Positions 53,173-63,370 of a stretch of 64,000 bases of DNA are shown here, in pieces. This DNA comes from Planosporangium mesophilum (GTDB lineage Bacteria; Actinomycetota; Actinomycetes; Mycobacteriales; Micromonosporaceae). A program made the translations under genes and the position numbers. Below the pieces are notes generated by a model. It ran no database searches. It saw nothing but the letters and a program-made list of their open reading frames with translations, and was not told where the DNA came from. Positions within the stretch are counted from its first letter, which is position 1; the number at the start of each line of letters is the position of its first letter. The stretch covers positions 1 through 64,000 of the forward strand of contig NZ_BOON01000027.1 in assembly GCF_016863255.1 (NCBI RefSeq), written 5' to 3'.

Positions 53173-54318
53173 CTAGGTGAGGCGGGTTTCGTCGGCCTTG
53201 TCGTACGGCCGGATCTCGGTCAGCCGTCCGTCGCGCACTTTGGTGGGCCAGGCTGGTTCGGAGAGCAGGGCGCGGCCCAGGCCGACGAGGTCGAACTCGC
53301 CCCGGTCGAACAGTTCCAGCAAGGGCGCGAGGCTGGGCGTCGGCGCCGGTTGCTCACCTTCCCCGCGGAAGGCCTGCGCGACGCCGACGGAGCCGATCGC
53401 GATGACCGGCAGCCCGGTGAGCTTCTTCGTCCAGCCGGCCAGGGTCAGTGGCGAGCCGTCGAAGGCCGGCAGCCAGTACCGGCGGGTCGAGACGTGGACG
53501 ACCGAGACGCCGGCGTCGACCAGCGGGGTGAGTAGTTGCTCCAGTCCGCCGGGCGTGTCCGCGACGCGGGCGTCGAACTGGCCGCCCTTCCACTGTGAGT
53601 ACCGGTAGAGCACGGGGAACTCGGCTCCCACCTCCGCGCGGATCGCGGCCACCACCTCGGCGCCCAGGCGGGCCCGGCTGGCCGGGCTGCCGCCGTAATC
53701 GTCGGTACGGCGGTTCGTGCGCGGCCAGAAGAACTGGTCCAACAGGTACCCATGGGCCCCGTGCAGTTCCACGCCGTCGAAGCCGGCGAGCCGCGCGTCA
53801 CGGGCGGCGCGGACGAACGACGCCACGACCGCGTCGAGGTCGGCTGCCGACGCGGGCTCGCCCACGCTCGTGCCGTCGGCGCGTACTCCCGACGGGCTGA
53901 GCACCGGCGCGTGCGGGTACGGCGGCGTACCGGCGGTACGGGTGGCGCCGAGGTGCCACAACTGCGGCACGATATGTCCGCCCGCGGCGTGTACCGCCCG
54001 AGCGACGGCGCTCCAGCCGGCGAGCGCGTCCGCACCGAAGAAGCGCGGGACCCGGTCGCTGGACCCGGCCGACGGGTGGTCGATGTAGGTCCCCTCGGTA
54101 ATGATGAGCCCGACGTGTGCGGCCCTCCGCGCGTAGTAGGCGGCGACGTCCGCGCTGGGCACCCCGCCGGGCGAGAACTGGCGGGTCATCGGCGCCATCA
54201 CGAAGCGGTTGGACAGCTCGCCGCCACCCAGCGGGTACGGGCTGAACAGTGGTGCCGGATCCGTGTCCGCGCTGAGGCTGGCGCCATCCACGGGGGTGTC
54301 GTTTGTCCTGGTCGGCAT
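53173..54318 (-). CDS. NADH:flavin oxidoreductase, old yellow enzyme family
   Basis: Encodes 381 aa. FMN TIM barrel: LSNRFVMAPMTRQFSPGGVP, VPQLWHLGA, GFDGVELHGAHGYLLDQFFW, PRTNRRTDDYGGS, and C-terminal FDLVGLGRALLSEPAW for phosphate binding. It reduces activated double bonds or related groups with NAD(P)H. AGGACAGGA precedes ATG 54318. Lies 90 bases after the DUF1684 gene on the same strand, likely the distal gene of the transporter operon. Confidence 0.85.
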   Translation of the reverse strand: MPTRTNDTPVDGASLSADTDPAPLFSPYPLGGGELSNRFVMAPMTRQFSPGGVPSADVAAYYARRAAHVGLIITEGTYIDHPSAGSSDRVPRFFGADALAGWSAVARAVHAAGGHIVPQLWHLGATRTAGTPPYPHAPVLSPSGVRADGTSVGEPASAADLDAVVASFVRAARDARLAGFDGVELHGAHGYLLDQFFWPRTNRRTDDYGGSPASRARLGAEVVAAIRAEVGAEFPVLYRYSQWKGGQFDARVADTPGGLEQLLTPLVDAGVSVVHVSTRRYWLPAFDGSPLTLAGWTKKLTGLPVIAIGSVGVAQAFRGEGEQPAPTPSLAPLLELFDRGEFDLVGLGRALLSEPAWPTKVRDGRLTEIRPYDKADETRLT

Positions 54319-54408: not shown

Positions 54409-55233
54409 TCAGTGCTCAGGGCGCGCGACAGGCGTTTGTTCGCCGGCCTCGATCGCCACGGGCAGCCGGTTCTCGGCCGGCGGGAGCGGGCAGGTGGCGA
54501 ACTCGGTGTACGCGCACGGCAGGTTCACCGCCCGGTTGAAGTCCAGCGTCACGGTACCGTCCGGGGCGGGCGCGGAGACCTGGAGCGACCGGTTGGCCGG
54601 GTAGGTCGTCACGCCCGACGTGGCGTCCGTGAACAGGACGTTCAGGGTGCCCGGCGTGTGCCCGTTGAACGCGGTCAGGCTCAGCGCGGTGCCGTCCACC
54701 TCGAACTCGATCCGGCCGGGTGCGTCGTACACATGCTCAATGCCCTCGGCGACGGCGCCGACGGTGGTGGGTACGGGCTTGTCGAACGGCACGTACCGAC
54801 CCGTGACCGCCCAGTGGGGGTCGGCCGGATACGCGGGGGTGCCCGCGTAGTTGACCCGCACGGGGTGGTCGGGGTGGCGGGGTCGCACGATGTCGAAGCC
54901 GCCGCGCTTGGCGACCTCGATGACCGCGTCGCCCCAGCCCGCCTTCACGTCGGTACGCTCGGCCAGCGGGCCGAACGAGTGCCGGCCACGTACGGTGTGG
55001 CCGTCGATCGTCAGCTCCTCGCCCTCGTCAAGGTCCACGACGACGCCGTCGGGGCCGGTCGACCAGGCGCCGGGGGCGTCGGGGAAGCGCTGCGGCTCCC
55101 CGGTCAGCCAGTGCAGGCCGCTGATCGCGAGGAAGCCGTGCCTGTCGGCGCGGGCCTTCTCGTGTGCCTCGTGCCAGGCGTCCCAGTCGGCCCGGAACGT
55201 GTCCTGGTTAATGGTGGTCTCCTGGATGGTCAT
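54409..55233 (-). CDS. DUF1684 domain protein
   Basis: Encodes 274 aa. WDAWHEAHEKARADRHGFLA and ISGLHWLTGEPQRFPDAPGAW start the domain; the end NRAVNLPCAYTEFATCPLPPAENRLPVAI is the most conserved DUF1684 part (P-C-A-Y-x3-x-x-C-P-L-P-x-x-x-N). No signal peptide. Biochemical function unknown; often found next to LLM monooxygenases and transporters. 19 bases downstream of the ABC ATPase gene. Confidence 0.82.
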   Translation of the reverse strand: MTIQETTINQDTFRADWDAWHEAHEKARADRHGFLAISGLHWLTGEPQRFPDAPGAWSTGPDGVVVDLDEGEELTIDGHTVRGRHSFGPLAERTDVKAGWGDAVIEVAKRGGFDIVRPRHPDHPVRVNYAGTPAYPADPHWAVTGRYVPFDKPVPTTVGAVAEGIEHVYDAPGRIEFEVDGTALSLTAFNGHTPGTLNVLFTDATSGVTTYPANRSLQVSAPAPDGTVTLDFNRAVNLPCAYTEFATCPLPPAENRLPVAIEAGEQTPVARPEH

Positions 55234-55252: not shown

Positions 55253-56869
55253 TCACAGCGGTGTGGCCCGACGCCCCGGAATGGCGTCGAGCAGCTCTCG
55301 GGTGTACTCGTGGCGCGGGCTGTCGAACAGCTGTGCGGCGGTGGCGGTCTCGACGATCCGGCCGTCCTTCATGACGGCGACCCGGTCGGCGATCTGGCGC
55401 ACCACGGCGAGGTCGTGAGAGATGAACAGGTACGCCACGCCGGTGTCCGCCTGCAGTTGCGCGAGCAGCCGCAGCACCTGGTCCTGCACCGACACGTCCA
55501 GCGCGGACACCGGCTCGTCGCACACGACGAGGTCGGGGCTCAGCGCCAGGGAACGCGCGATCGCCACCCGTTGGCGCTGCCCGCCCGACAGCTGCGCCGG
55601 GCGCCGGTCGAGCGCCGACGACGGCAGCGCCACCCGGTCGACGAGGTCGCGTGCGCGGGCGAGCCGCGACGCCCGGTCCCCGACGCCGAACGCGCGCAGC
55701 GGCTCGGTGACGATCTTCGCGACGGTGAACCGCGGGTCCAGCGAGGCGTACGGGTTCTGATAGATGAGCTGCGCCCGCCGACGCAGCGCCCGCAGGGCCG
55801 GGCCGCGCGCATGGGTCACGTCCGCGCCGGCGAAGGTGATGCGTCCGGCGGTCGGCTCCGTGAGCCGCAGCACGAGCCTCGCGGTCGTCGACTTGCCGGA
55901 GCCGGACTCGCCGACCAGCGCGAACGTCTCGCCGCGGCGGATGTCGAAGCTCACCTCGTCCACAGCGCGTACGGTGCGGGACCCGCCGTTGACGCGGGGC
56001 AGCGGGAACTCCTTCGACACGCCCTCGACGGTCACCAACGCCGCGCCGTCGGGTAGGTGCTTCGGCGCGACCCGGTCCGTGACGGACAGGCTGGGCGCCG
56101 CCGCGAGCAGCCCGCGCGTGTACGGGTGGCGGGGCACGTCGAGCACCGTGCGGGTCGGTCCGGCCTCGACGGCGCGGCCCTGGGACATGACGACCACCCG
56201 GTGCGCGCGATCGGCGGCGATGCCGAGGTCGTGCGTGATGAGCAGCATGGCGGCGCCGGACTCGCGTACCAGGGCGTCGAGGTGGTCGAGGATGCGCCGC
56301 TGCACGGTCACGTCCAGCGCGCTCGTCGGCTCGTCCGCGATGATCAGCCGGGGCCGCGCGGCGATCGCCACCGCGATGAGCGCCCGCTGGCGCATACCGC
56401 CCGACAGCTCGTACGGGTACTGCCGGGCCCGCACGGCGGGGTCGGGCAGCCCGGCCCGCTCCAGCAACTCCACCGCCTCGACCGTGGCGGAGCGCCGGTC
56501 GGCCAGCCCGTGCACGCGCAGCGCCTCGGCCACCTGGTCGCCGATGCGTGTGACCGGGTTCAGCGACACCGTTGGGTCCTGCGGCACCAATCCGATGCGG
56601 GCGCCGCGTACCGCGCGCAGCTCCCGGTCGGAGGCGCCGGCCAGTTCACGTCCCTCGAACCGGATCGACCCGCCGTCCACTCGGGCGTTGGGCGGCAGCA
56701 GGCCGATGACGGCGTGGGCGGTCGTACTCTTGCCCGACCCCGACTCGCCGACCACGGCGACGACCTCGCCGGGACGTACCGCAAGATCTAGGTTGTCGAC
56801 CGCCGTGATGGCGCCGCCCCGCGTGCCGTAACTGACGCGCAGGCCGCGGATGTCCAGGAGTTCGCTCAC
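55253..56869 (-). CDS. Dipeptide-type ABC transporter, fused double ATP-binding protein (DppD-DppF)
   Basis: Encodes 538 aa with two complete ABC domains: Walker A VVGESGSGKSTTAHAV then signature ELSGGMRQRALIAVA and Walker B LIIADEPTSALDV; second Walker A LVGESGSGKSTTARLV, signature QLSGGQRQRVAIARSLA, Walker B LVVCDEPVSALDV. The oligopeptide C-terminal motif P-H-x-Y-T occurs in HPYTRGLL and HEYTRELL. It energises the two permeases upstream. GTG 56869 overlaps the permease stop (GTGA). Confidence 0.92.
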   Translation of the reverse strand: MSELLDIRGLRVSYGTRGGAITAVDNLDLAVRPGEVVAVVGESGSGKSTTAHAVIGLLPPNARVDGGSIRFEGRELAGASDRELRAVRGARIGLVPQDPTVSLNPVTRIGDQVAEALRVHGLADRRSATVEAVELLERAGLPDPAVRARQYPYELSGGMRQRALIAVAIAARPRLIIADEPTSALDVTVQRRILDHLDALVRESGAAMLLITHDLGIAADRAHRVVVMSQGRAVEAGPTRTVLDVPRHPYTRGLLAAAPSLSVTDRVAPKHLPDGAALVTVEGVSKEFPLPRVNGGSRTVRAVDEVSFDIRRGETFALVGESGSGKSTTARLVLRLTEPTAGRITFAGADVTHARGPALRALRRRAQLIYQNPYASLDPRFTVAKIVTEPLRAFGVGDRASRLARARDLVDRVALPSSALDRRPAQLSGGQRQRVAIARSLALSPDLVVCDEPVSALDVSVQDQVLRLLAQLQADTGVAYLFISHDLAVVRQIADRVAVMKDGRIVETATAAQLFDSPRHEYTRELLDAIPGRRATPL

Positions 56870-57777
56870 CGGTGCCTCGCCCACTCGCCGTCCAGCGCCC
56901 GGGCGATCCGGTTGGTGGCCAGCACCGTGGCGGCCACCGTGAGGCCCGGCAGCGTGGACAGCCACCACGCGTTGGCGAGGTAGTTGCGGCCGCTGGAGAT
57001 CAGTGTCCCCCATTCGGGGGCGGGCGGCGCTGCGCCGTAGCCCAGGAAGCTCAGCGACGACACCGCCAGCACGGCTGTGCCGACGTCCAGCGCGGCGAGC
57101 ACCGCCACCGGGCCGATCGCGTTGGGCAGCACGTGCCGCAGCAGGACCGCGTACCAGCGGGCGCCCGACAAGCGCGCCGCCTCCACGTAGACGGCCTGCC
57201 GTACCCGCAGCACCTCGGCGCGCATGACGCGGGCGAAGCTCGCCACGCTCGCGATGCCGACCGCCACGGCCACCTTCACCGTGCCGTAACCGAGCGCGGT
57301 GACCAGCGCCAACGACAGGAACAGGGCCGGGATCGCCAGCAGCACGTCGACCAGGCGCATGAGTGCGTCCTCGACCCAGCGTCCCACGAAACCGGCGACC
57401 AGGCCGACCGCGCCGCCGACGGCGAACGCCACGGCCACCGCGATCAGCGTCGCCTTCAGCGACAGCGCCGCGCCGTGCACGACGCGGGCGAGCACGTCAC
57501 GACCCAGCTCGTCGGTGCCGAACGGGTGTGCGCCGCCCGGCGCGCGGAAGCGCTCGGCCGGCACCCCGAGCAGCGGGTCGCGCCCCGTGAACAGGTGCGG
57601 CCAGAACGCCGCCAAAAAAACCAGAACCACCACGAGTACGGACAGGACGAGTCCGGGCCGGCGGACCAGGAAGCGGATCAGGCGCGCCCGTGGGGCACGG
57701 TCCGCGTGGCCGTCGGGCCGGGAGAGGTGCTCCGCGGCCGGGTCACGCTCCAGCGGGCCGGCGATCAGCTGCGTCAT
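56866..57777 (-). CDS. ABC transporter permease (DppC-like)
   Basis: Encodes 303 aa. One N-terminal membrane helix (GLVLSVLVVVLVFLAAFWP) then HPFGTDELGRDVLARVVHGA, the DppC signature, and five further helices; EAA loop AARLSGARWYAVLLRHVLPN. Partner of the DppB-like permease. Overlaps both neighbours by 4 bases. Confidence 0.9.
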   Translation of the reverse strand: MTQLIAGPLERDPAAEHLSRPDGHADRAPRARLIRFLVRRPGLVLSVLVVVLVFLAAFWPHLFTGRDPLLGVPAERFRAPGGAHPFGTDELGRDVLARVVHGAALSLKATLIAVAVAFAVGGAVGLVAGFVGRWVEDALMRLVDVLLAIPALFLSLALVTALGYGTVKVAVAVGIASVASFARVMRAEVLRVRQAVYVEAARLSGARWYAVLLRHVLPNAIGPVAVLAALDVGTAVLAVSSLSFLGYGAAPPAPEWGTLISSGRNYLANAWWLSTLPGLTVAATVLATNRIARALDGEWARHR

Positions 57778-58727
57778 GCGGGACTCCTCCGGCCGGCCGC
57801 CACGATCCGTGGGTCCAGCAGCGGATAGATCAGGTCAACGGCCAGGTTCACCAGGACGAACGCGGCGGCGCCGAACACGACGACGCCCTGCACGAGGGGG
57901 ATGTCCTGCACCGTCACCGCGTTCACGGTCGCGCGGCCCAGGCCGTTGCGGGAGAACACCGACTCGACGACCACGGACCCGGCCAGCAGGTTGCCCACGA
58001 CCAGGCCGACGACGGTGAGCGCGGGCAGCGCGGCATTGCGCAACGCGTGACGCAGGTGGATGCGCGCCGGACCGGCGCCCTTGGCCCGCGCCGTCTCGAC
58101 GTACGGCTCGTCCAGGGCGGTGAGCAGGCTCTTCGCCAGCACCTGCGCGATCAGCGCGCTGGTCGGGACGGCGAGGGTCAGCGCGGGCAGGACCAGCCCG
58201 CGAAGCCCGTCGTTGCCGAACGCGGGCAGCAGCCGCAGCCGGAACGACAGCAGCTGCACGAGGATGAGGCCGACCCAGAACGTCGGCAGGGAGACGCCGA
58301 GGCCGGGCAGCGACAGCAGCGCCTGGCGCAGCCACCGCCGCGGCGTGTACGTGGCGTAGCTCGCCAGGCCGGCACCGAACACGACGGCCAGCAGAAGAGC
58401 GGCGGCCGTGAGCGCCAATGTCGGCGGCAGGGCCTCGGCGATCACCGTGGTGACCGGCCGTCCGGTGGCGACCGAGTGGCCGAAGTCCCCGCGCGCGGCC
58501 CGGCCGAGGTACTCCAGGTACTGCAGCCAGACCGGCTGGTCGAACCCGTACTCGTGGCGCATCCGGGCCAGCACGGCCGGGTCGAGCGGTGCCTGGTCCA
58601 GCCCCCCGCCGGCCATGGCGGAGACGGGGTCGCCGGGCAGGAGATCGAGCACCAGGAACGACACGGTGTACGCGGCCCACAGGACCGCCACCGCCTGGGC
58701 GAGTCGCCGGAGGACATAGCGACGCAT
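57774..58727 (-). CDS. ABC transporter permease (DppB-like)
   Basis: Encodes 317 aa, six helices. MRRYVLRRLAQAVAVLWAAY and LDLLPGDPVSAMAGGG are the DppB start; EAA loop ARAKGAGPARIHLRHALRNA; GNLLAGSVVVESVFSRNGLG is typical. GGAGAGCACC precedes the ATG. It lies 28 bases after the binding-protein gene. Confidence 0.9.
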   Translation of the reverse strand: MRRYVLRRLAQAVAVLWAAYTVSFLVLDLLPGDPVSAMAGGGLDQAPLDPAVLARMRHEYGFDQPVWLQYLEYLGRAARGDFGHSVATGRPVTTVIAEALPPTLALTAAALLLAVVFGAGLASYATYTPRRWLRQALLSLPGLGVSLPTFWVGLILVQLLSFRLRLLPAFGNDGLRGLVLPALTLAVPTSALIAQVLAKSLLTALDEPYVETARAKGAGPARIHLRHALRNAALPALTVVGLVVGNLLAGSVVVESVFSRNGLGRATVNAVTVQDIPLVQGVVVFGAAAFVLVNLAVDLIYPLLDPRIVAAGRRSPA

Positions 58728-58755: not shown

Positions 58756-60357
58756 TCAGCTCTTCCAGGTGTCGTGCAGCTGGATGCGGCTCGACGCCTC
58801 GAAGGTGAGGTCGTGCACGTTGCGCCTGACGCCGAGTTCGGTGGTGAGCTCGACGACCGGGACGACGTACGCGTTGCTGACGATGAGGTCCTGCGCCTGC
58901 TTGACCAGCTCCTGGCGCTTGGTGGCGTCGGTCGTGGCCGCCTGGTCGGTGAGCACGCGGTCCAGGTCGCTGGGCGCGAGCCGGTACGGGTTGGCCAGCT
59001 GGGTGGAGTACAGGGTGCGCAGGATGTCCGGATCGGCGCGGGTCAGGTTGCCCCAGAGGGCGTCGAAGTCGCCGGACTGTTGTACCTGGGTGATCTGCGC
59101 GATCTGCAGCTGCTTGAGGGTGACCTCGACACCGACGGCCTTGAGCTGCTGCTGGATGAGTTCCAGCGTGGGTTGGTTGGTGGCGGCGTTGGCGAACCAG
59201 GTGATCGCGAACGACAGCCGCGTACCGCCCTTGGCTCGGATGCCGTCGGCGCCCGGCACCCACCCGGCGGCGTCCAGCAGCGACTTCGCCTTGGCGGCGT
59301 CGAACGCGAGCGTCGCGTACAGGTCGGAGTAGGAGGGCGTGGTGTGCGCGAGCACGCTGGTGGCCGGCTTGCTGCCCGTCGGGAATATGGTCTCCACGAT
59401 CTGCTGGCGGTCGATGGCCACCTGCAGGGCCCGGCGTACCGCGGCGTCCTTGAACAGCGGGCGCGAGTTGTTGAGGCCGAGGTTGAACACCACGCCCGGG
59501 TTCGCGCGCGTCTGCAGGCGCATGCCGCCGGCCTTGAGCGCGCTCTCGTCGGCGAGCCCGACCGCGCCGATCGCGTCGACCTGACCGGACTGCAGGCTGC
59601 CGCTGCGCACGCCGGCCTCGGCGATGACGGTGAAGACCAGCTTGTCCAGGTACGCTTCGCCGCTCTTCTTCCACAACGACGAACCCCAGCGGTACCCCGA
59701 CCGCCGGCTCAGCGTGATCGACTGGTTCGGCACGTACTTGTCGAGCATGAACGGTCCCGAGCCGACGATGCCCTCGGTGCAGCGCTGGTCGGGTGCCTTG
59801 TTAGCGCTCGCGCTGGACACCAGGCCCAGCGAGAACGTGGAGCTGGCCTGCAGGAACTGCGCGTTGGACTGGATGAAGGACACCTCGGCCGTCGAGTCGT
59901 CGACCACCTTCGTGCCGGCGTACCCGCTCAGGTATCCGACGGCGAGGGCGGCCTTCGGGCCGAGCTTCGTCGCGGCGTCGAAGGTGTCCTTGACGGCCTG
60001 TGCGTTGACCGGCGTGCCGTCGGAGAATGTGGCGCCGGAGCGCAGGTGGAACGTGAACGTCCTGGCGTCGGCGCTGATCTCCCATTTCTCCGCGAGCCAG
60101 GGCACGATCGTGCCGGTCGCGGGGTCCTGGTCGGTGAGCGAGTCGACGACCTGGCGTAGCGAGTAGATGGTGTCGTTGCTGCCCACCTGTTGCGGGTCCA
60201 GGCAACCGGCGTCGGAGCCGACCGCGAAGGTGAGTGTGCCGCCCGACCTCGGGCCGCCGGTCGCGCCGGTGTCGCCGCTCGAGCCGCAGGCGGACAGCGC
60301 CAGGGCGGCGGTGGCGAGCGCTGCGGCAGCGGCGCCGGGACTCCATCGTGGACGCAT
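58756..60357 (-). CDS. ABC transporter substrate-binding lipoprotein (family 5)
   Basis: Encodes 533 aa. Lipoprotein signal with lipobox LSAC (Cys24), so attached outside the membrane. SBP_bac_5 features: GGTLTFAVGSDAGCLDPQQV, WLAEKWEISADARTFTFHLR, SGATFSDGTPVNAQAVKDTF. Family 5 proteins bind peptides, nickel or varied small molecules. A cysteine-type leader peptide and a sulfur-gene context suggest an organosulfur ligand. First structural gene of the leftward operon; AGGAGAAG precedes the ATG. Confidence 0.9.
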   Translation of the reverse strand: MRPRWSPGAAAAALATAALALSACGSSGDTGATGGPRSGGTLTFAVGSDAGCLDPQQVGSNDTIYSLRQVVDSLTDQDPATGTIVPWLAEKWEISADARTFTFHLRSGATFSDGTPVNAQAVKDTFDAATKLGPKAALAVGYLSGYAGTKVVDDSTAEVSFIQSNAQFLQASSTFSLGLVSSASANKAPDQRCTEGIVGSGPFMLDKYVPNQSITLSRRSGYRWGSSLWKKSGEAYLDKLVFTVIAEAGVRSGSLQSGQVDAIGAVGLADESALKAGGMRLQTRANPGVVFNLGLNNSRPLFKDAAVRRALQVAIDRQQIVETIFPTGSKPATSVLAHTTPSYSDLYATLAFDAAKAKSLLDAAGWVPGADGIRAKGGTRLSFAITWFANAATNQPTLELIQQQLKAVGVEVTLKQLQIAQITQVQQSGDFDALWGNLTRADPDILRTLYSTQLANPYRLAPSDLDRVLTDQAATTDATKRQELVKQAQDLIVSNAYVVPVVELTTELGVRRNVHDLTFEASSRIQLHDTWKS

Positions 60358-60416
60358 AGAGGGACTTCTCCTGTCGGCAGGGGTATCGCGAGCAAGGCGC
60401 GGCGCAGCGTCGGACC

Positions 60417-60432
60417 GCCCGCCGTGGCGGGC
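60417..60432 (-). terminator. Hairpin between leader peptide and ABC operon (candidate attenuator)
   Basis: GCCCGCC / GGCGGGC, a perfect 7-bp GC-only inverted repeat separated by 2 bases, located 28 bases after the leader-peptide stop and 60 bases before the binding-protein ATG. A position fit for transcription attenuation. Confidence 0.5.
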
Positions 60433-60459
60433 TCCCCGGTGGTATGCGGGAGAAACTGT

Positions 60460-60549
60460 CTACCGAGGACAGACCGCGCTGGTCACGCGCTGCAGATCGA
60501 TGTGGCGCCGGGAGAACAGTGCGGGGTGGCGACGGCGCGTGTGCGACAT
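60460..60549 (-). CDS. RRHIDL-type leader peptide (29 aa), likely cysteine-responsive
   Basis: ATG 60549 with GGAGGGAGG upstream encodes a 29-residue peptide: MSHTRRRHPALFSRRHIDLQ then RVTSAVCPR. The core R-R-H-I-D-L-x-R-x-x-S-A-x-C-P is the pattern of the putative leader peptides found in actinobacteria upstream of sulfur-assimilation and sulfur-carrier genes; polycysteine leaders in mycobacteria have been shown to act as cysteine-responsive attenuators. Here a single Cys codon lies three codons before the stop. It sits in the 270-base 5' leader of the ABC operon, between a strong promoter and a GC-rich hairpin. Usually missed by gene callers because of its size. Confidence 0.85.
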   Translation of the reverse strand: MSHTRRRHPALFSRRHIDLQRVTSAVCPR

Positions 60550-60632
60550 GTCGCCTCCCTCCGACGGGATCGCGGCGTCCCGCGTCGGTAAGGGCCGACC
60601 TGCGGGATCGGTAATAACGATCTCAGGCCCTC

Positions 60633-60661
60633 AGGCTAGCCACGTCAGGCTGATCGGTCAA
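60633..60661 (-). promoter_or_regulatory. Promoter of the leader-peptide/ABC transporter operon
   Basis: On the minus strand TTGACC (60661-60656), 17-base spacer, TAGCCT (60638-60633): near-consensus housekeeping promoter, start site about 60626. The leader peptide begins about 77 bases downstream. Confidence 0.65.
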
Positions 60662-60684
60662 TCCCTATGGTTCAGGTAGGTATT

Positions 60685-60722
60685 TTTCCATCGCCATGGC
60701 ATCCTGCTCATGGCGATGGAAA
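60685..60722. promoter_or_regulatory. Long inverted repeat in the divergent intergenic region
   Basis: TTTCCATCGCCATG (60685-60698) and CATGGCGATGGAAA (60709-60722) are perfect 14-bp arms around a 10-base centre. An outer imperfect pair ATCCCTATGG (60661-60670) / CCATAGAGAT (60734-60743) encloses it. No gene overlaps it, and the T-run precedes rather than follows the stem, so an operator or RNA element is more likely than a terminator. Confidence 0.5.
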
Positions 60723-60815
60723 GTCCACTTTTCCCATAGAGATTAGACAGTTCACGGGGGGCGAGGTACGGTCCCGGTCGGGAGGCACCTCCGCGACACG
60801 AAGGGGAACCCCGTC

Positions 60816-62024
60816 ATGCCCGACCCCTCGTCATCACTGCATCTGGCGGTCGCCCTCGACGGCGCCGGCTGGCACCCGGCGGCCTGGCGCGAGCCGGACG
60901 CCAGGCCCGCCGAACTACTGACCGCCCGCTACTGGCACGATCAGGTCGCCGAGGCCGAGCGCGGCCTGCTGGACTTCGTCACGCTCGAGGACTCCCTGGG
61001 CCCCCAGTCCAGCCTCCCCGGCGGGCCGGACGAACGCACCGACCAGGTGCGCGGCCGGCTCGACGCGGTGCTCACCGCCGCCCGGATCGCGCCCCTCACC
61101 AGGCACATCGGTCTCGTGCCGGTCGTCATCGCCACGCACACCGAGCCGTTCCACATCGCCAAGGCCATCGCCACGCTCGACTACGCGTCGGTCGGCCGGG
61201 CCGGCGTGCAGGTGCGGGTCGCGGCCCGCCCCGATGAGGCGGCCCACTTCGGGCGGCGCAGCTTCCCCCCGCTGCGGATTGAGGATCTCGACGGCCCGCT
61301 GCGCCAGCTCTACGAGGACCTGTTTGACGAGGCCGGCGACTACGTCGAAGTCGTGCGGCGGCTGTGGGACAGCTGGGAGGACGACGCCGAGATCCGCGAC
61401 GCCGCCACCGGTCGTTTCGTCGATCGCGACAAGTTGCACTACATCGATTTCGCCGGCCGCTGGTTCAGCGTCAAGGGTCCGTCGATCACCCCGCGCCCGC
61501 CACAGGGACAGCCCGTCGTCGCCGCGCTGGCCCACGCGCCGATCCCGTTCCGGCTCGTCGGGCGCGCCGCCGACCTCGGCTTCGTAACGCCGTTCGACGA
61601 GCGCGAGGCCGCGGACATCGTCGCGGCGGTCCGCGCGGAGCAGGCGGGCGCCGGTCGCGGCGACGGGTACGTCGGTGTGTTCGCCGACCTCGTGGTGTTC
61701 CTCGACGACACGGCCGCCGCCGCTCAGGCCCGCAAGAACCGCCTCGACGAGAGGGCGGGAGCGGCCTTCACCAGCGACGCCCACGTCTTCGTGGGTACGC
61801 CGACCGAGCTCGCCGATCTGCTGGAATCCTGGCGCGCCGCCGGGTTGGCCGGCTTCCGGCTGCGTCCGGCCGCGCTGCCACACGACCTTCGGCAGATCAC
61901 CCACGGTCTCGTGCCCGAACTGCGCCGCCGCGGGCTGTTTCGCGCCGCCTACGAGTCCAGCACGCTGCGCGGCCTGCTCGGCCTGCCGCGGCCGGCCAAC
62001 CGCTACGCGGAGGTTTCGTCATGA
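60816..62024 (+). CDS. LLM class flavin-dependent oxidoreductase 1
   Basis: Encodes 402 aa. Luciferase-like fold: LHLAVALDGAGWHPAAWREP, YWHDQVAEAERGLLDFVTLE, DAVLTAARIAPLTRHIGLVP and HIAKAIATLDYASVGRAGVQ, as in the SnaA/NtaA/DszA monooxygenase group, which use FMNH2 from a separate reductase. GAAGGGG precedes the ATG. The stop overlaps the second LLM gene (ATGA). Substrate unknown; desulfonation or C-S bond cleavage is inferred from the context. Confidence 0.85.
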   Translation: MPDPSSSLHLAVALDGAGWHPAAWREPDARPAELLTARYWHDQVAEAERGLLDFVTLEDSLGPQSSLPGGPDERTDQVRGRLDAVLTAARIAPLTRHIGLVPVVIATHTEPFHIAKAIATLDYASVGRAGVQVRVAARPDEAAHFGRRSFPPLRIEDLDGPLRQLYEDLFDEAGDYVEVVRRLWDSWEDDAEIRDAATGRFVDRDKLHYIDFAGRWFSVKGPSITPRPPQGQPVVAALAHAPIPFRLVGRAADLGFVTPFDEREAADIVAAVRAEQAGAGRGDGYVGVFADLVVFLDDTAAAAQARKNRLDERAGAAFTSDAHVFVGTPTELADLLESWRAAGLAGFRLRPAALPHDLRQITHGLVPELRRRGLFRAAYESSTLRGLLGLPRPANRYAEVSS

Positions 62025-63370
62025 GCCGCAAGCAGATCCACCTGGCCGCGCACTTCCCGGGCGTGAACAATACGACAGTGTGGAGCGACCCCGCGGCCGG
62101 CAGCCACATCGAGTTCAGCTCGTTCGCGCACTTCGCGCGTACGGCCGAGCGCGGCAAGTTCGACTTCCTCTTCCTGGCCGAGGGCCTGCGGCTACGCGAA
62201 CAGAACGGACTCATCTACGACCTCGACGTCGTGGGTCGGCCGGACACGTTCACGGTGCTCGCCGCCCTCGCGGCGGTCACCGAGCGGCTCGGCCTGACCG
62301 GCACGATCAATTCCACGTTCAACGAGCCGTACGAGGTGGCCCGGCAGTTCGCGAGCCTCGACCACCTCTCCGACGGACGGTCCGCCTGGAACGTGGTGAC
62401 CTCCTGGGACGCGTTCACGGGTGAGAACTTCCGGCGGGGTGGTTACCTGCCGCAGGACGAGCGGTATCTGCGGGCGCGCAACTTCCTCGAGGCGACGTGG
62501 GAGCTGTTCGACTCGTGGCGCGGCGACGAGATCGTGGCGGACAAGGAGACCGGCGTCTTCCTGCGCGACCCGCACGCCGGTACGTTCGCCCGCCAGGACG
62601 AGCACTTCGACATCGCCGGCCGGTTCAACGTGCCGCGTCCGCCGCAGGGGCGACCCGTGATCTTCCAGGCCGGCGACTCGGAGGAGGGACGCGAGTTCGC
62701 GGCCTCGTCGGCCGACGCCATCTTCAGCCGGTACGCCACCCTCGCCGAGGGGCGGGCGTTCTACGCCGACGTGAAGGGGCGGCTGGCCCGTTACGGCCGT
62801 ACGCGCGACGAGCTGCTCATCCTGCCCGCCGCGACGTTCGTCCTCGCCGACACCGACGCCGAGGCCGCCGAGCTGGCGCACCACGTGCGTCGGCAGCAGG
62901 TCAGCGGGCAGACCGCGATCAAGTTCGCCGAGCAGCTGTGGAACCGCGACCTGTCGGGCTATGACCCGGACGGCCCGCTGCCCGAGATCGATCCGCTGGT
63001 CGGCGAGAACACGATAGCCCGGGGGCGGGCCAGCGTCCGCATGTACCGCGACCCGCTCGCGACCGCGCGCGAGTGGCGCGAGCGGGCGGCGCAGAAGAAG
63101 CTCTCACTCCGGGAGCTGATCATCGAGGTGACCGGGCGACAGACGTTCGTCGGCTCCCCGGCCACGGTCGCGGAGTCGATCAACGATCTGGTGCAGGCCG
63201 ACGCGAGCGACGGCTTCATCCTCGTTCCGCACATCACGCCGGGCGGGCTGGATCCCTTCGTGGACCGGGTGGTGCCGCTGCTGCAGGAGCGCGGCGTGTT
63301 CCGCGCCGACTACGCCGGCACGACGCTGCGCGATCATCTCGGCCTCAGCCAGCCCCGGGCCGCGTCATGA
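62021..63370 (+). CDS. LLM class flavin-dependent oxidoreductase 2 (NtaA/DmoA/SnaA-type)
   Basis: Encodes 449 aa, GGAGG 7 bases before the ATG. KQIHLAAHFPGVNNTTVWSD, FAHFARTAERGKFDFLFLAE, FNEPYEVARQFASLDHLSDG, RSAWNVVTSWDAFTGENFRR and GRPVIFQAGDSEEGREFAA are hallmarks of the NtaA/DmoA/SnaA family; members oxidise nitrilotriacetate, dimethyl sulfide or dibenzothiophene sulfone with reduced FMN. Coupled to both neighbours (ATGA overlaps), so three paralogous oxygenases are co-translated. Confidence 0.88.
   Translation: MSRKQIHLAAHFPGVNNTTVWSDPAAGSHIEFSSFAHFARTAERGKFDFLFLAEGLRLREQNGLIYDLDVVGRPDTFTVLAALAAVTERLGLTGTINSTFNEPYEVARQFASLDHLSDGRSAWNVVTSWDAFTGENFRRGGYLPQDERYLRARNFLEATWELFDSWRGDEIVADKETGVFLRDPHAGTFARQDEHFDIAGRFNVPRPPQGRPVIFQAGDSEEGREFAASSADAIFSRYATLAEGRAFYADVKGRLARYGRTRDELLILPAATFVLADTDAEAAELAHHVRRQQVSGQTAIKFAEQLWNRDLSGYDPDGPLPEIDPLVGENTIARGRASVRMYRDPLATAREWRERAAQKKLSLRELIIEVTGRQTFVGSPATVAESINDLVQADASDGFILVPHITPGGLDPFVDRVVPLLQERGVFRADYAGTTLRDHLGLSQPRAAS

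Follow-up and report, generated by a model that had tools for sequence, protein, structure and literature searches.

The window analysed here, a 64,000-nucleotide stretch of Planosporangium mesophilum DNA, carries a very short open reading frame (ORF) ahead of an ABC importer operon, and the question is whether the encoded peptide ties an importer of unknown ligand to cysteine supply. The gene nearest to this ORF encodes a substrate-binding lipoprotein (SBP) of the SBP_bac_5 family (58756–60357, minus strand), which is TIGR04028-like at 332.6 bits, below the cut-off of 468.5, and whose Shine–Dalgarno (SD) core AGGAG is read from the sequence at 60368–60372 (minus strand). The SBP gene is the first of an Opp/Gsi-type importer string that continues on the same strand with two permeases of the Opp/Nik B type (57774–58727) and C type (56866–57777), a double ATPase of the Gsi/Opp type (55253–56869, taken to start at the GTG of VSELLDIRG within a listed ORF that runs to 57013), a DUF1684 protein (54409–55233) and a homologue of the Old-yellow-enzyme family of oxidoreductases (53173–54318). 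Divergent from it, on the plus strand, lie two flavin monooxygenase genes: LLM1 (60816–62024), TIGR03860-like below the cut-off, and LLM2 (62021–63370), a member of the NtaA/DmoA family that scores over the TIGR03860 cut-off and finds its best solved-structure matches in YtnJ and MoxC, followed by nitrilotriacetate (NTA) monooxygenase and DszA. A third flavin monooxygenase begins at 63367, and a fourth lies outside the window. We infer that the importer ligand is an organosulfur compound that the adjoining flavin monooxygenases can desulfurise.

The leader ORF occupies 60460–60549 on the minus strand and encodes the 29-codon product MSHTRRRHPALFSRRHIDLQRVTSAVCPR, as the initial annotation proposed; reading of the sequence is borne out by a match to the curated NCBIfam family NF042934 ("putative leader peptide", cis_reg_atten) at 35.2 bits, against a cut-off of 27 (E 6e-9). 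Its sole cysteine codon is codon 27 of 29, an invariant TGT (UGU in the mRNA) at 60469–60471 (minus strand) that is the last codon of the NF042934 match, and two codons remain before the stop. A strong, purine-rich SD sequence, GGAGGGAGG (60554–60562, minus strand), sits 4 nt 5′ of the ATG, and a promoter at 60633–60661 (minus strand) has a −35 element TTGACC (60656–60661), a 17-nt spacer and a −10 element TAGCCT (60633–60638); both are read from the sequence, and their positions predict a 5′ UTR of about 75 nt. This promoter had been described as near-consensus. The two hexamers are present at 60661–60633, but the description holds only by actinomycete standards, because the promoter conforms to the Streptomyces pattern TAnnnT / nTGACn given in PMC8079986 while its −10 shares three of six bases with TATAAT. 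The limited agreement of the −10 also explains why an E. coli-type promoter scan did not report the leader promoter.

The leader ORF ends 102 nt before the start of the SBP gene. Within this spacer there is indeed a GC-rich hairpin, GCCCGCC-AC-GGCGGGC (60417–60432, minus strand), as first noted, but no terminator-like T-run stands behind it and we ruled it out as an intrinsic terminator. No other intrinsic terminator was found after the leader in the window, so that the intrinsic terminator of a classical transcription attenuator is absent 3′ of this leader. The spacer folds no better than shuffled sequences (z +0.82), and significant RNA structure in the leader or spacer of the window was dropped as a candidate, the fold z values being +0.82 and −0.82.

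The match to NF042934 means that the motif was already known, as the initial annotation allowed, and, since the motif is a curated family, that its remark on the ORF escaping gene callers by its size needs some correction. The ORF closes within a few codons of the terminal cysteine, and its place upstream of the same gene is kept in orthologues (56 of 80 loci, described below). Across the whole 6.6 Mb genome two places exceed the NF042934 cut-off, namely the window leader, which scores better, and a leader at C6:225003 that precedes a rhodanese-type sulfurtransferase gene. A further leader at C5:163063, below the cut-off at 20 bits, precedes a sulfite reductase gene. NF042934 matches occur in at least 25 of 396 genomes of a phylum sample at E 1e-4 or better, all from one class, and in at least 135 of 150 genomes of a family sample at E 0.001; both counts are minimum figures, since in each genome the scoring covered a portion of the first-look candidates. 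The residues R, D, L and R ahead of the cysteine are retained in leaders that precede many different genes, a retention that is partly selected for, as the searches used that motif.

Several other leaders came to light in these searches. In a Streptomyces-like group (f4; loci L196–L200, L183–L185 and L195) the leaders are of the type RVHMDL[VL]RYAGCVC, and a cysteine dioxygenase (Pfam CDO_I) is encoded behind the one that was tested, at L199. Leaders of the RGHIDLLRVASAAC type (L079 at 5779, L082 at 10362, L251, L254 and L255) precede the gene of a secreted protein of 828–834 amino acids (L082, L079) that by eye resembles an M14-type carboxypeptidase. A different SBP_bac_5 lipoprotein gene, at L206, also comes with a leader, RRHVDLCRQASAVC, and more than one peptide-type importer may therefore be under such control.

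We compared the leaders upstream of orthologous importers, a check that the initial annotation had proposed, in the best 80 of 91 relatives confirmed by a binding-protein scan of named genomes, a set heavy in Streptomyces. A leader on the same strand and no more than 900 nt upstream of the SBP gene was found at 56 of the 80 loci. A first regular expression gave 50 of them, and a more permissive inspection of 24 of its 30 misses added the other six, which have a variant RR position. A strict form of the motif, run over all 80 loci (1.03 Mb of relatives' DNA), occurs at 79 places. Fifty-five of these fall in the 900-nt zone before the SBP gene, and L165, where the SBP gene match is split, is one further leader locus that brings the total to 56. 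The 23 other places also look leader-like by eye, and 12 of them lie about 100–300 nt before an LLM1 homologue. Leaders precede the SBP gene in nine named genera: Planotetraspora, Rugosimonospora, Frankia, Protofrankia, Streptomyces, Geodermatophilus, Blastococcus, Trujillonella and Pseudonocardia. At the orthologous Rugosimonospora locus the leader motif and the promoter element are nearly the same as in the window.

Within 900 nt before the SBP gene no leader was found at 24 of the 80 loci, and therefore the importer can exist leaderless. These comprise all eight Actinomadura and all three Nocardia loci, Virgisporangium, three Pseudonocardia loci (L150, L155, L156), Nesterenkonia, Ornithinimicrobium, Auritidibacter, two Acrocarpospora loci, Microbacterium, Actinoplanes, and L152 and L153; L137 and L156, both among the 24, have hardly any upstream sequence. 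At L152 and L153 the leader stands further upstream, before a string of LLM1, LLM2 and SBP genes. The arrangement also varies in other ways: Planotetraspora mira has two divergent leaders, one facing each operon; G068 and G048, two genomes of the window's family, have the leader pointing toward the monooxygenase operon and none directly before the SBP gene; and in a genome of the window's genus (G053) a leader precedes a more distant paralogue (38% identity). The strict motif found no leader on the monooxygenase side of the window. In Frankia and Protofrankia (L091 13094–13144, L092 13096–13146) there is a second leader, RRHIDLCRVAGALCPP, downstream of the importer genes and about 280 nt before an LLM2 homologue. 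Together, the relatives suggest from their sequences that the leader may tune sulfur uptake to cysteine supply.

Control of the importer by the leader, which had first been offered as a surmise, gains support from these 56 loci and from what often stands beside their leaders. Most Streptomyces loci have a conserved RNA upstream of the leader. Twenty-two of the 80 loci, selected partly for the absence of an aptamer core, were submitted to Rfam, and at 12 of them a SAM riboswitch lies next to the leader: SAM-IV (RF00634) directly upstream at L094, L097, L103, L108, L114, L127 and L138, and SAM-I (RF00162) directly upstream at L147, L148, L149, L152 and L157. Nine submitted loci with a leader gave no SAM match in Rfam (L087, L088, L090, L091, L095, L142, L144, L145, L151), and L096 gave no Rfam match. 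A loose regular expression for the aptamer core matches 45 of the 56 leader loci, including 36 of 41 in Streptomyces. Additional SAM-IV elements lie within a few kb of the importer, away from its leader, at L114 (534–642, minus strand), L149 (4500–4613, minus strand) and L138 (2053–2165, plus strand). In the window itself a SAM riboswitch was rejected, as Rfam gave no match over 60300–60850 up to E 5. In relatives two sulfur sensors stand before one operon, which argues strongly for a role of the importer in supplying cysteine and methionine.

The terminal cysteine codon follows a near-absolute rule. Among 162 unique leader motifs from all fetched loci, which include the importer leaders and a family codon set, this codon is TGT in 159 and TGC in 3, while cysteine in the importer-cluster coding regions of the 80 loci is encoded by TGC 384 times and by TGT 20 times (20/404); the window's own cluster genes have six TGC and no TGT. 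When the motifs are grouped by sequence, 37 of 40 clusters have TGT only, and p values for this codon bias ignore relatedness. The family codon set comes from a protein-level search, blind to codon choice, and TGT is found in 78 of its 80 unique leaders. It holds 87 entries at 86 places (one doubled), made up of 80 of 93 rows of the phylum search and six rows of the family search; the phylum rows left out are five with a match ending at model position 17 or 18, two of this genome and six unfetched.

At other cysteine positions of the same motifs we counted 94 TGC and 33 TGT. TGT is also enriched two codons before the terminal cysteine (26 of 61), and the preference is therefore strongest at the terminal cysteine and not confined to it. 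Most conserved residues elsewhere in the motif have a codon mix near background, and several wobble bases vary. The exceptions are the serine three codons before the cysteine (AGC 78% versus 26%) and the aspartate (GAT 30% versus 9%), and the codon usage of one arginine and of the valine is shifted too. The base that follows the terminal cysteine codon is C in 135 of 162 motifs. A single tRNA-Cys with anticodon GCA decodes both cysteine codons, and on the simplest reading the wobble decoding of UGU would therefore raise sensitivity to a scarcity of charged tRNA-Cys. UGU is no rule for all cysteine leaders, as UGC dominates in a cysS leader from Rhodobacterales according to PMC8632094.

From these counts we lean, by a little, toward a general reading: across the Actinomycetes sampled, one attenuator family would read cysteine supply through a fixed UGU, a synonym otherwise avoided in these GC-rich genomes, and the synonymous choice would be a sensor setting that eases stalling when charged tRNA-Cys is low. 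At the importer, in relatives, this attenuator would be coupled in tandem to a SAM riboswitch, and a single mRNA leader would thereby read both cysteine and methionine/SAM. The leader itself belongs to a known family; what is new is the operon under its probable control, and the sulfur-regulon membership of the importer and the unexpected UGU rule are what most deserve pursuit. Our search of the open-access literature, a scope that leaves aside most subscription journals, found no description of the UGU rule, of the SAM-plus-leader arrangement or of NF042934 control of this importer class.

For the window, we consider it highly probable that the ORF encodes an NF042934-type leader peptide which senses cysteine and thereby sets the expression of a sulfur-acquisition importer. 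The basis is the ORF, its family, its kept place before the importer, the SAM coupling in relatives and the sulfur genes behind the genome's own leaders. The YtnJ match of LLM2, the UGU bias and the C excess of the spacer speak for it as well. In the working that we propose, a ribosome translates RRHIDLxRVxSAxC and would halt at the single UGU when charged tRNA-Cys is scarce. The halted ribosome would alter access to the mRNA just downstream and the importer operon would be expressed; with ample cysteine the ribosome would finish and leave, and the operon would be turned down. What we infer here is that stalling occurs at UGU, which way the response goes and how the output is produced. Several points speak against this explanation: the 24 loci with no leader in the zone before the SBP gene, the single cysteine codon of the window leader in place of a run, the lack of covarying pairs with the SBP ribosome site, and a C excess at some leaderless loci. 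A same-family leader also precedes cysteine dioxygenase, an enzyme that a cell short of cysteine would hardly be expected to induce. The response may therefore differ in sign between targets, and the cysteine dioxygenase leader may work with the opposite sign.

How the stalled ribosome would act on the importer operon is the next question, and we slightly favour premature (Rho-type) termination over sequestration of the SD. In the Rho version, which follows the example of the tna operon of E. coli, a C-rich entry site would be masked for as long as a ribosome stays stalled close to the leader stop, and once that ribosome leaves Rho would stop transcription; we give this version slightly less than an even chance. 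Between leader and SBP gene, the spacer is richer in C than in G, as expected for Rho entry sites: the skew (C−G)/(C+G) averages +0.22 and is positive at 48 of 48 loci, against −0.02 and 13 of 48 upstream of the leader, and in the window it is +0.17 in the spacer versus −0.04 upstream. The lack of an intrinsic terminator in the window fits this output as well. Seliverstov 2005 (PMC1262725) proposed Rho for mycobacterial cys leaders, calling the prediction weak. However, C-rich stretches also precede the SBP gene at leaderless loci, for example L159 (+0.34) and L161 (+0.22).

Translational attenuation, in which a downstream anti-SD would close off the ribosome site of the SBP gene except when a stalled ribosome covers that anti-SD, is a possible output to which we assign a lower probability. 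In the window, a TTTCTCC shortly past the leader stop and a TTCTCC inside the leader can each pair with GGAGAA of the SBP site, and the post-stop pairing is present in the minimum-energy fold. RNAalifold likewise pairs the leader CUCC with GGAG in 27 Streptomyces-type sequences, but the pairs between leader and SBP ribosome site in this alignment have no covariation. The folds of the window are also unremarkable, with the z values of +0.82 and −0.82 given above, and when 50 leader-to-SBP transcripts were folded singly, no consistent partner for the SD emerged. As a partner the post-stop region is not preferred, with a mean rank of 0.52 over 49 loci and three in the best tenth, and an anti-SD right past the leader stop was rejected as a general feature. 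A 2020 study by Canestrari is said to have found translational attenuation by mycobacterial polycysteine leaders. That work is cited for translation attenuation of cysteine genes in a 2026 paper (PMC13236596).

The conserved peptide could instead be an arrest peptide that acts in the exit tunnel and needs the cysteine chemically, not as a measure of charged tRNA. In its favour, the residues R, D, L and R are kept ahead of the cysteine across leaders of many genes, although the searches select for the motif, and several wobble bases of the motif vary. We find this reading rather doubtful, as it leaves the choice of UGU over UGC unexplained, and that choice is extreme at the terminal cysteine. 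It is also unlikely that base pairing of the RNA, and not decoding, is what preserves UGU. UGUC does lie opposite GACA beside the SBP SD in single loci (for example L090 and L104), the region around the cysteine codon is mildly preferred as a partner of the SD region (mean rank 0.34 within its own transcript, 11 of 49 in the best tenth), and the C that follows the codon in 135 of 162 leaders would suit pairing. Yet outside the Streptomyces group this region pairs no better with its own transcript than across loci (−15.4 versus −15.9 kcal/mol), and replacing UGU by UGC makes the SD pairing stronger in 35 of 48 loci, weaker in 12 and unchanged in one; as a general reason for UGU, we dropped pairing of the cysteine codon with the SBP SD on the comparison across loci. 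That the window leader is a relic without a present role, as its single cysteine and the leaderless monooxygenase side might hint, is very improbable, for the ORF, SD, promoter and UGU are all intact and the orthologous Rugosimonospora locus is nearly the same in motif and promoter element.

The region between the divergent operons holds possible operators in addition to the leader. An element CCATAGGGATTGAC (60657–60670, minus strand), found by sequence comparison, overlaps the −35 of the leader promoter; it is identical at the orthologous Rugosimonospora promoter (L090/L017) and near-identical in Planotetraspora mira (L088). A similar CC-ATAGrGATT element overlaps both −35 regions, at 60657–60670 on the minus strand and at about 60734–60749 on the plus strand. 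Between the two promoters a perfect 14-bp inverted repeat, TTTCCATCGCCATG/CATGGCGATGGAAA (60685–60722), was read from the sequence as another possible operator. The inverted repeat and the paired elements suggest that the importer and monooxygenase operons may share a regulator. A regulon-wide ATAGGGATTGAC operator was dropped: the genome has one exact and five one-mismatch sites, against one for the reversed control, and the element is therefore local at most. A gene that by eye encodes an Rrf2-like regulator lies near the orthologous cluster at L080 (12562–13152, G068) and L083 (12197–12697, G048), and this regulator is a candidate for the operator between the divergent promoters.

The assignment of an importer family of unknown ligand and its adjoining flavin monooxygenases to sulfur acquisition narrows the search for the ligand to organosulfur compounds. 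The results also suggest that actinomycete families beyond the mycobacteria share the mechanism known there, coupled in series to a SAM riboswitch at many Streptomyces loci. How a leader could sense cysteine with only one codon for it is a question on which the near-absolute UGU rule offers a simple and testable lead.

Among known systems the window leader is closest to NF042934 itself, with which it shares a match over the cut-off, the short ORF and, in several tested cases, sulfur genes downstream. The mycobacterial leaders Ms4527A and Ms5788A (NF042936) have in common with it the R-R-x-[IV]-D-L-x-R-V core and terminal cysteine of mycobacterial-type members and a place upstream of sulfur genes. 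They differ in that they carry a run of cysteines, as polycysteine attenuators of the Ms4527A type do, whereas the window leader has one cysteine codon, and apparently also in their leaderless start, as the window leader has its own SD and a putative 5′ UTR; it scores 27.8 bits against the Ms4527A model, below the cut-off of 45. For M. smegmatis, Shell 2015 (PMC4633059) reports ribosomes on a cysteine-rich leader ORF. SAM-IV and SAM-I riboswitches precede the same leader and importer in relatives, while the window has none. The ytmI operon of Bacillus subtilis, which includes YtnJ/CmoJ, likewise sets a sulfur-compound importer beside flavin monooxygenases; its importer belongs to another class than the window importer, and we know of no such leader there. 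YtnJ is the best solved-structure match of LLM2.
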